Below are positions 1,060-5,875 of a DNA stretch of 45,854 bases, piece after piece (within the stretch, counting starts at the first letter, position 1; every line of letters starts with the position of its first letter). The notes beneath the pieces were generated by a model. The model did no database searches. It had not been told where the DNA came from and worked only from the letters and a program-made list of their open reading frames with translations. The stretch covers positions 1-45,854 of the IMG/VR virus record IMGVR_UViG_3300044641_006875; one strand, written 5' to 3'. The stretch is from a virus. A program made the position numbers and the translations under genes.

Positions 1060-1900
1060 AAAAAAAAACACTGAGATTACATGTTTTAGTGATTGACTTT
1101 GAGACATTATTTGTTTCTTCTCTTATCCACTACCTTTTGAGTAGTACCAATCAGTGACGGTCAATTAGATTAACCAATCCTAAAGTCGTTAGATACTCTT
1201 TTAATACTCATTACTCTTCGAGGTTGCCACCCCAATTAGTCCTTGCGGGACTAGAGAACTTTCTCAAAAATCATGTTGGGCTTGGGACCCTTCATGGCCG
1301 AGAACCCCTCTCGACTGTGTAGTCACCTGTCTCCAACGACTGACGAGCACTTTTCCTTGTTTTATTTAAGTTGTTAAACCGTAATTAACAAAGTTTTTGG
1401 TTCCGAATGTGGAAAGTAGCGGCTCGTCTGCCAGCCAAGCCACCTTTTGGGCGACTCGATACTAAACTACTCTCTGAGATATCCCTACCTCCATATTTCT
1501 GGACTCCTTCATAACTGATGTCTTGGTAGACATCTGATAAGGATGATAACAGCACCACCTGTTTTTCACCATACCTTTCGGTTTTAAGATTCCCATCATA
1601 TTGAATCACACAATTGTAAGATTGGAAGTCCTACTTCTTGTAATAACTCTACAGATTATTCTTATTGGTGTTCCCACCTCAATCAAACAACTCGGATTGC
1701 TTGATCACTAAACCACTTTCCTTACAGTGTCACCCTCAGTACTTAAGGTTCAATGATATTCTGCTTGCCTACTCAAGTTCCATTACTGAAACCGCAAAAC
1801 GCTTAACCAAACGTTTCACTTTATCCCACTTTCATGGTTTATTTTAATCGACCATAGGCGGCCAATATTTTTAATTCAAAGAACTATTTCCTTAACTCTT
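1060..1900 (-). ncRNA. Candidate giant structured RNA (~840 nt, GOLLD/ROOL-like context)
   Basis: About 840 nt without a credible gene; the open frames inside are short and do not look like proteins. On the - strand it has a perfect Bacteroidota-type promoter just upstream (1904-1934) and ends in a run of nine U (1060-1068). GC content is clearly higher than in neighbouring genes. Local hairpins are dense: a 9-bp stem at 1682-1705, 7 bp at 1517-1534, 6 bp at 1237-1253, 5 bp at 1129-1145, 4 bp at 1764-1777 and 5 bp at 1220-1233. Its length and its place beside a phage tRNA cluster recall the large GOLLD and ROOL RNAs, but I cannot align it to either family; the family assignment is inference. 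A novel class is equally possible. Confidence 0.6.
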
Positions 1901-1903
1901 TTA

Positions 1904-1934
1904 CAAAGATAGATAATGTTTTTCAAAAAACAAA
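1904..1934 (-). promoter_or_regulatory. Host-type (Bacteroidota sigma) promoter for the large RNA
   Basis: On the - strand TTTG (1934-1931), exactly 19 nt, then TATCTTTG (1911-1904). This matches the TTTG-N19-21-TAnnTTTG consensus of Bacteroidota housekeeping promoters. Predicted start is near 1897-1901. It sits in the short gap after the radical-SAM stop codon. Confidence 0.75.
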
Positions 1935-1941
1935 CACCTTA

Positions 1942-3195
1942 TTAATAATTTTTTTTATTTTCCATGTAAAAATCATATAATGGCTTGTTAATCATTAAAA
2001 TAGATTCAAAATTTATTTTTTGATGTGGTCTATTTTTTTCTAAATATGTGATGTGATCCGTAGCATTTTTAAATTTATCAAAATATTCTGGATCATTATC
2101 TAAATACTCTCTTTCAATTAGAAATGAAAGATAATATCTAAAAGAATTTATTGTTTCATTATGTTCATTTTCAAATTTAACCAAGAAGTCGTCTATTAAT
2201 GATTTAATTAAATGTTTGGGAAATGCTAGTGGTGTTAATAGACTAAAAGAATCACCAACATAACATGTTTGAAAACCAGGTAAAACATTAAACTCTATGC
2301 AAAGGCGATATAGGTTTTCTAAGTCGAATAATGTTGGTGTAGTAATAGTAATTGCTAGGTACACCTTAATATTGTTAAATTCATTCCTTGCTTTAATAAT
2401 TTGAGAAAAATTTTCCCTCCAGGATATGTAATCTAAATTAGTTCTTATCCATTCACCAACATCACCAGTACCATCTAAACTACATGAAAAATCTACTCTT
2501 TTAAAATGTTTAAAATAATCAACAATTGAAACACCTTTATAATGAATGATCGATAGATTTGTGTTATATCTTAATACAACATTTTTAGCTTTATCATTTT
2601 TAATTAATTTGTCAAGGGTCTCCCAATGTGTTTTCCAGTAAAGGGGCTCACCACCAGCCCAGTACATATCAATAATATTTTCAAAAATATCTTCTTTATT
2701 AATCTCACTTTTAATGATATTTTCACTAACCACTCTTTGATCATGATTTAAAATGTTTAGTTCAATACCATTTTTAACTTTTTCTGCTTGTATTTGTGTT
2801 GAACACCCTTCCCAACACATTTTACACTTAAAATTACATACGTTTGTTCTATAATCAATCGATATAGGATATTTTACATAGCTACCGTCATCTTCGGTAT
2901 CACTAATAACTGAATCTATTAAGTCTCTAAATTTATCATTAAAGAAATTTTGATAAGTATGTGGGCTTGATGTGTTTTCATTACATCTGTTACAGATACT
3001 TAACTTCTCACCATTTAACATCTTTTTACGTATTTCTTTCATTTCTGTGCTATTCCACATTTCATCTAATGAAACATTAACACCAAAATTATGATCAGAA
3101 ATACAACATAGTTGACGCTCCCCTTGTGCTGATATGTGCGAATGAACCCAAGGAACAATACAAAAAGATTTATTATTTTCTAAATTTATACGCAT
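1942..3195 (-). CDS. Twitch-domain radical SAM protein
   Basis: A 417-residue protein. The N-terminus carries FCIVPWVH (11-18) followed by C30/C31 and a C-N-R-C pair (68-71), an arrangement seen in 'twitch'/SPASM-type auxiliary iron-sulphur modules placed before the core. The radical SAM cluster motif is C120-x3-C124-x2-C127, and the GGEP motif appears near 185. Radical SAM enzymes cleave S-adenosylmethionine to start radical chemistry; the substrate of the phage twitch group is not known to me. It stands between the large RNA candidate and the tRNA-Met gene, so modification of an RNA or a neighbouring product is possible but unproven. Length and motifs look intact. Confidence 0.82.
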   Translation of the reverse strand: MRINLENNKSFCIVPWVHSHISAQGERQLCCISDHNFGVNVSLDEMWNSTEMKEIRKKMLNGEKLSICNRCNENTSSPHTYQNFFNDKFRDLIDSVISDTEDDGSYVKYPISIDYRTNVCNFKCKMCWEGCSTQIQAEKVKNGIELNILNHDQRVVSENIIKSEINKEDIFENIIDMYWAGGEPLYWKTHWETLDKLIKNDKAKNVVLRYNTNLSIIHYKGVSIVDYFKHFKRVDFSCSLDGTGDVGEWIRTNLDYISWRENFSQIIKARNEFNNIKVYLAITITTPTLFDLENLYRLCIEFNVLPGFQTCYVGDSFSLLTPLAFPKHLIKSLIDDFLVKFENEHNETINSFRYYLSFLIEREYLDNDPEYFDKFKNATDHITYLEKNRPHQKINFESILMINKPLYDFYMENKKNY

Positions 3196-4550: not shown

Positions 4551-4608
4551 ATGATGTTTTACAATATATCAAAGAACTTTATCAAATATAAGAATAATAA
4601 ATTATAAA

Positions 4609-4642
4609 ACAAAAAACCCGAACATTTTTTATTTGTCCGGGT
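4609..4642 (-). terminator. Rho-independent terminator after the small outer-membrane protein
   Basis: ACCCGGACA/TGTTCGGGT stem with one mismatch and a 9-nt loop, followed on the - strand by TTTTTTG and further T residues. It separates gene 4665-5078 from the downstream tRNAs. Confidence 0.8.
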
Positions 4643-5381: not shown

Positions 5382-5389
5382 AAAATACT

Positions 5390-5645
5390 AACTCACCTTA
5401 AATTGCGCCTACTGGTCATGCCATGGTTAACAAAGTCCTCGTTGAGCTAGTTTAAAAATCTAATTACGTTTGGTAAGGTGATTGCTCACACCTTCATCTA
5501 TTAGGATATTGTTCTTATTAAACTACATACCCAACGTAACTAAACCTTATTAATTTACATTCTTGATGATAACAACATTCCTCAATATCATTTATAACCA
5601 CTTTGTTTAAGTTAAACTTTAGTTATAAGTTATCAGAACATAAAT
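5390..5645 (-). other. Gene-free leader upstream of the tRNAs with long-range pairing
   Basis: About 250 nt with no gene. On the - strand TTACGTT and AACGTAA form a 7-bp stem that encloses a perfect AAGGTG/CACCTT hairpin, and GTTTA-ACT-TAAAC lies inside a TATAAC/GTTATA pair. It could be the leader of the tRNA transcript or a third RNA element; no promoter or terminator of its own is evident. Confidence 0.35.
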
Positions 5646-5649
5646 TAAT

Positions 5650-5841
5650 AAAAAAAACAGGTTTTTTGTACCCTTTTGTACATCATAACTGATATATTGC
5701 TACATCAGTGGTTACATTTTCACAATTGGGTTAATTACTCCCCGCTTATAGTAACTCTACCCTCACCGCTCTGATACCGCGAATCAAGACAGCTTTTTGG
5801 GATTTATAGACACTGGGGTTCCACCACCGTCATCACCTGTT
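5650..5841 (-). ncRNA. Candidate ~190-nt structured RNA closed by a 5'-3' terminal stem
   Basis: The predicted RNA starts with AACAGGT (5841-5835), exactly where the promoter at 5845-5875 should initiate. It ends with its complement ACCTGTT (5662-5656), which runs into eight U (5657-5650), so the two ends pair. Internal helices include CTGATGT/ATATCAG (with one wobble), TGTAC/GTACA and GGGT..TTACT/AGTAA..ACCC. GC content exceeds the flanks. Size and closed-end layout recall 6S-type RNAs, but no homology can be claimed from reading alone. Confidence 0.65.
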
Positions 5842-5844
5842 ATG

Positions 5845-5875
5845 CAAATATAGATATAATTTTTCAAATTACAAA
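5845..5875 (-). promoter_or_regulatory. Host-type (Bacteroidota sigma) promoter for the ~190-nt RNA
   Basis: On the - strand TTTG (5875-5872), exactly 19 nt, then TATATTTG (5852-5845). The architecture is the same as the promoter of the 840-nt RNA. Predicted start is about 5838-5841. Confidence 0.78.

Follow-up and report, generated by a model that had tools for sequence, protein, structure and literature searches.

GOLLD (RF02032) and ROOL are RNAs that phages encode beside tRNA islands and that form RNA cages. ROOL, which is also encoded by prophages, assembles through quaternary kissing loops into an RNA-only cage, and its symmetric loop L18 keeps a conserved sequence instead of switching. 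OLE is a bacterial rather than a phage RNA. The packaging RNA of phage phi29, a short phage RNA, also multimerises by loop-loop contacts, but its loops are heterotypic and serve the packaging motor. For two of these RNAs, intermolecular kissing loops have been argued from palindromes that switch their sequence during evolution: loop L9.3 of OLE, a homodimer, alternates among palindromic tetranucleotides, and palindrome switching likewise supports homotypic contacts of GOLLD, in its loop L21a (2025 ornate-RNA paper; PMC12286853). Here, we describe an independent and much smaller RNA family that occupies the same niche as GOLLD and ROOL. Our results make it close to certain that it represents a conserved, structured phage RNA gene. 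Its copies share with GOLLD and ROOL the evolutionary signature of self-association, which bears on the generality of RNA assembly in phage tRNA islands.

The window, i.e., the whole stretch of DNA analyzed, is a virus record of 45.9 kb from IMG/VR (45,854 nt) that encodes a T4-type terminase as well as portal and major head proteins and contains eight tRNA genes. The structured RNA lies on its minus strand, with the following parts and neighbors:

1068-1474, minus strand: GOLLD RNA (3' conserved part), Rfam RF02032, 315.5 bits, same strand as the structured RNA
5382-5453, minus strand: hairpin RNA element of ~72 nt, 20 distinct phage copies, pattern scan
5650-5657, minus strand: run of eight U, possible terminator in free-standing copies, missing from some copies embedded in arrays
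5656-5841, minus strand: structured RNA including the closing stem, 41 distinct homologs aligned, covariance model R1
5656-5662, minus strand: P1, 3' strand of the terminal stem (ACCTGTT), covariation in the 41-copy alignment
5667-5682, minus strand: P6 hairpin, every cell paired, double changes in three pairs
5684-5687, minus strand: pseudoknot strand UAUG, mutual information and covariation
5688-5709, minus strand: P5 hairpin with variable loop length, covariation in the 41-copy alignment
5711-5755, minus strand: P4 hairpin, double changes in four of five outer pairs
5733-5736, minus strand: AAUU palindrome at the P4 apex, putative second homotypic kissing loop, palindrome switching
5760-5801, minus strand: P3 hairpin, outer CCC/GGG covarying to CUC/GAG and CUU/AAG
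5778-5781, minus strand: CGCG palindrome at the P3 apex, putative homotypic kissing loop, palindrome switching
5805-5808, minus strand: pseudoknot strand UAUA (partner 5687-5684), pair 5805-5687 with five pair types and paired in 41 of 41 copies
5810-5830, minus strand: P2 hairpin, 98.5% paired, double changes in two pairs
5835-5841, minus strand: P1, 5' strand of the terminal stem (AACAGGT), double changes in five of six counted pairs
5845-5875, minus strand: promoter TTTG-N19-TATATTTG of the Bacteroidota -33/-7 type, perfect match to the consensus

A preliminary description of this locus had proposed a discrete RNA with closed ends, whose promoter leads into AACAGGT and whose only downstream ACCTGTT pairs with this start and is followed by eight U. 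All of these elements could indeed be located on the minus strand: the promoter consists of TTTG at 5875-5872, N19 and TATATTTG at 5852-5845, and ACCTGTT occurs a single time downstream of the start, at 5656-5662, yielding an RNA of about 186 nt (5841-5656) whose boundaries are confirmed by its relatives. Perfect matches to TTTG-N19-TANNTTTG are found four times in the window, compared with 0.6 expected (four were reached in one of 100 shuffles), and three of them precede RNA genes, namely GOLLD (1904-1934), tRNA-Leu (4583-4613) and the structured RNA (5845-5875). The promoter class, and hence the likely Bacteroidota host, is a putative assignment based on the general features of Bacteroidota promoters.

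To collect homologs, IMG/VR was screened by protein neighbors and with two patterns, the second of them loop-neutral, before a profile search was performed. These steps returned 73 matches, corresponding to about 50 distinct sequences in phage contigs, and the stretch conserved among them matches the closed unit. A later viral scan added one new copy (L371, G099), whose P3 loop, CUAG, is again a palindrome, and a scan with the pattern ATGATGT gave mostly chance matches. Forty-one full-length copies were aligned (alignment A1; rows of 179-218 nt including 7 nt of flank), equivalent to about 15 effective sequences. No homolog was detected by blastn in isolate phages (queried with the window, L258 and L203) or plasmids (queried with L095), nor was one found with the P2 pattern in the genomes of 84,980 bacterial and archaeal species. 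Rfam 15 gave no match to the RNA of the window even at permissive thresholds, apart from one unrelated hit (E 3.6), and left the RNA of two relatives unmatched, and the locus received no tRNA or tmRNA call from ARAGORN or Rfam. The RNA is thus a new phage RNA family that is absent from Rfam and not a member of GOLLD, ROOL, OLE or 6S. Its carriers are large freshwater phages of Bacteroidota-like hosts, in which it is often wedged between tRNA genes.

Its fold is well defined by covariation. For the RNA of the window alone, folding yields -51.9 kcal/mol (z -2.4) and a closed terminal stem. The breakdown of this stem in relatives, which the preliminary description had named as evidence against the unit, was not seen among the 41 homologs: in a 43-pair consensus structure, 98.8% of the helix cells pair, and five of the six P1 pairs show compensatory changes, as in L183, where ACAGGU/ACCUGU is replaced by ACAAAC/GUUUGU. 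In total, 24 pairs carry changes on both sides, whereas shuffles gave a mean of 10.7 and never reached this number (0 of 500), and control structures slid by 1-3 columns paired in only 37-50% of their cells. P1 encloses P2-P6 in a multibranched arrangement, joined by strongly conserved single-stranded regions. In addition, a structure-free ranking by mutual information identified columns 40 and 195, which covary through five standard pair types without exception; together with their invariant neighbors, they support a 4-bp pseudoknot between UAUN and NAUG.

The most telling features are the apical loops of P3 and P4. The P3 apex reads CGCG in 29, CUAG in nine, CCGG in two and CAUG in one of the 41 copies (two divergent copies being shifted by one column in this tally), so that all variants are self-complementary; the share of CGCG is inflated by the first scan pattern, which fixed this loop, but such a pattern cannot generate other palindromes. 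In a tree from which the loop columns had been left out, the P3 loop requires at least nine switches, a number that could be inflated by recombination given the short branches. In P4, the apex is AAUU or AGCU in 39 of the 41 copies, with two imperfect palindromes (GAUU and UGCU), and its central pair, AU in 36 and GC in five copies, switched at least four times on the tree. The universal palindromes comprise four bases only, since the six-base form found in the window, UCGCGG, needs a U-G closure. The same unbiased ranking by mutual information placed the adjacent columns 118-119 at rank 16 and columns 69-70 at rank 30. Two neighboring bases of a single strand are unable to pair with each other, so their covariation indicates contacts between separate copies. 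When 155 windows of the structured RNA were screened blindly for switching palindromes, the P3 and P4 loops emerged and no others; 819 windows from similarly diverged GOLLD RNAs of these phages gave none. Evolution thus provides good support for the notion that copies of this RNA self-associate via their loops, as judged from sequence comparison. Co-assembly with GOLLD was also considered and rejected, as no switching palindromes exist among 20 GOLLD sequences of these phages.

These observations set the RNA alongside the known systems without making it one of them. Like GOLLD, it is an elaborately folded phage RNA beside tRNA islands, but it shows no sequence or model similarity to GOLLD, is shorter (about 186 nt versus 400-800+ nt) and is encoded by a separate gene, with RF02032 matching elsewhere in the window (1068-1474) and not at 5656-5841. 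The switching of L9.3 in OLE is the signature that we see in the P3 loop, although OLE is much larger and unrelated in sequence. ROOL is also found next to tRNAs but is far larger, has a symmetric loop that does not switch and gave no Rfam match to the structured RNA. The phi29 packaging RNA differs in its setting, given that the RNA described here resides within tRNA arrays of phages with T4-type terminase, portal and capsid proteins. Of the traits typical of GOLLD, ROOL and OLE, the RNA thus combines a phage location beside tRNA islands with switching self-complementary apical palindromes, but not a size of several hundred nucleotides.

Taken together, we consider it probable that this phage RNA gene outside Rfam gives rise to an RNA that self-associates via two homotypic kissing loops, in the manner of GOLLD, ROOL and OLE but without belonging to them. 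Its transcription would start at a promoter of its own, as in the window, or proceed as part of a polycistronic tRNA/tmRNA array. Its P1-P6 elements form a closed multibranched body, held by the pseudoknot revealed by covariation, and the self-complementary tetranucleotides of P3 and P4 would base-pair with their counterparts in other copies. Judging from palindrome switching, assembly may proceed to dimers or larger closed homo-oligomers. This physical mode would match that of GOLLD, ROOL and OLE, in phages that carry tRNAs, often a tmRNA and often GOLLD. Given this genomic company, it is tempting to speculate that the RNA acts during infection in a translation-linked manner, as a structural or a sequestering element. 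A bolder version, in which a small RNA with two independent homotypic kissing loops builds a closed RNA-only particle and is released, alongside GOLLD, from the tRNA/tmRNA arrays of the phage by processing of the tRNA type, appears doubtful at present. If it held, RNA-only assemblies would be recurrent in phage translation islands, at a size well under half that of the known ornate RNAs. An RNA of about 186 nt is easy to make and study, and its natural variants with incompatible loops offer a built-in test of specificity, so that it could make the role of such RNAs in infection tractable.

Alternatively, the RNA may act as a structured monomer with a protein or the ribosome as its binding partner, in a regulatory or translation-related capacity, with its palindromic loops being read by a symmetric protein partner. 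This scenario accommodates the strong conservation of the joining strands, the association with tRNAs and tmRNA, and the recurrence of the loop GGAGUAAUUACC in a second, otherwise different array RNA. However, recognition of a fixed sequence by a protein does not explain why the loops switch and yet stay self-complementary, and the likeness to the 16S, 23S and 5S rRNAs of E. coli does not exceed that of shuffled sequences. We therefore regard this scenario as possible but rather unlikely. Mimicry of rRNA was considered separately and rejected, as an apparent resemblance to helices 69-71 of the 23S rRNA vanished against shuffles.

The proposed self-associating RNA is, in most cases, part of a tRNA array. 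Among 47 distinct copies with upstream sequence, 33 start directly behind the T-arm/acceptor end of a tRNA or tmRNA (28 identified by script and five by eye in the same output), ten have TANNTTTG 3-7 nt upstream (the window and nine others), and four are unclear or other cases. Where they abut an upstream tRNA, the gap amounts to 0-3 nt (ARAGORN), while the distance to the downstream tRNA is often 5-13 nt; in L245, a phage contig of 321 kb, a tRNA, 3 nt, the RNA, 6 nt and another tRNA follow each other. Similarly, a comparison of tmRNA coordinates with the locus positions showed that several copies begin 1-2 nt past the CCA end of a tmRNA. This spacing suggests that, within arrays, the cuts that mature the flanking tRNAs would release the RNA with the same ends. 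The U-run is present in just a part of the copies and may be lacking between tRNAs (as in L127: CUGUUCAAAUGG...). Thus, the ends of the unit are real, whereas promoter and U-run are optional. The preliminary description, which saw one unit defined independently by promoter, stem and terminator, holds for the stem and the ends, but the terminator is not constant, and most copies lack a promoter of their own.

The preference for arrays, in which the RNA always shares the strand of the neighboring tRNAs, is also what would be expected of a cis-acting element of tRNA operons, such as a signal for processing or antitermination, as opposed to an RNA that works in trans. This idea is difficult to reconcile with the free-standing copies that have their own promoter and U-run (the window, L156 and L240), with the varied positions within arrays, including copies that follow a tmRNA or precede GOLLD, and with the elaborate fold, pseudoknot and loop palindromes, which makes it improbable. 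Least likely is the 6S-like RNA envisaged in the preliminary description, which would mimic an open promoter and act on host RNA polymerase: although the length, the closed terminal stem and the free-standing promoter of some copies are reminiscent of 6S RNA, the 6S covariance-model search suggested there, run with Rfam 15, retrieved no family of the 6S type, whether gathering or permissive thresholds were applied, the fold is multibranched with a pseudoknot instead of an extended rod opened by one large bubble at its center, the majority of copies are embedded in tRNA/tmRNA arrays, and the data hold no pointer to the polymerase.

GOLLD is present in 28 and a tmRNA over the cut-off in 37 of the 50 records bearing the RNA; by comparison, the 46 related phage records that have no close copy of the structured RNA include eight with GOLLD (Fisher p about 1e-4, or 9e-4 with near-duplicates removed), a contrast that serves as a guide only, since the records are partly fragments. 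The structured RNA and GOLLD lie on one strand in all 25 measured pairs, with the former upstream in 22. Phage tmRNA genes are exemplified by L354:11177-11560 (minus strand), L356:10143-10516 (minus strand) and L240:3785-4189 (plus strand), with tags such as ADYAVAA. In the window, the perfect promoter at 1904-1934 (minus strand) lies about 430 nt upstream of the Rfam match to GOLLD (1474-1068), suggesting that this phage makes a GOLLD transcript of some 830 nt. Further upstream, a radical SAM/SPASM protein is encoded at 1942-3195 (minus strand), between tRNA-Met and the GOLLD gene.

Two additional RNA elements were noted in these phages. One is the ~72-nt hairpin (ACUAGCUCA...UGAGUUAGU around CGAGGACUUUGU), which has no Rfam match at gathering thresholds and in many relatives lies directly 3' of the structured RNA, ahead of a tRNA. 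The other is an RNA of about 165 nt with the closing stem GUUGUU...AACAAC, located among tRNA genes at L356:5565-5732 (minus strand), L358:12280-12456 (plus strand) and L360:5457-5640 (minus strand) as well as in L361, L364 and L365, and flanked by tRNA-Asp and tRNA-Arg where both were mapped. It has the hairpin loop GGAGUAAUUACC in common with the structured RNA and, with a weak match to R1 (E about 0.01-0.03), is perhaps a distant relative of it.
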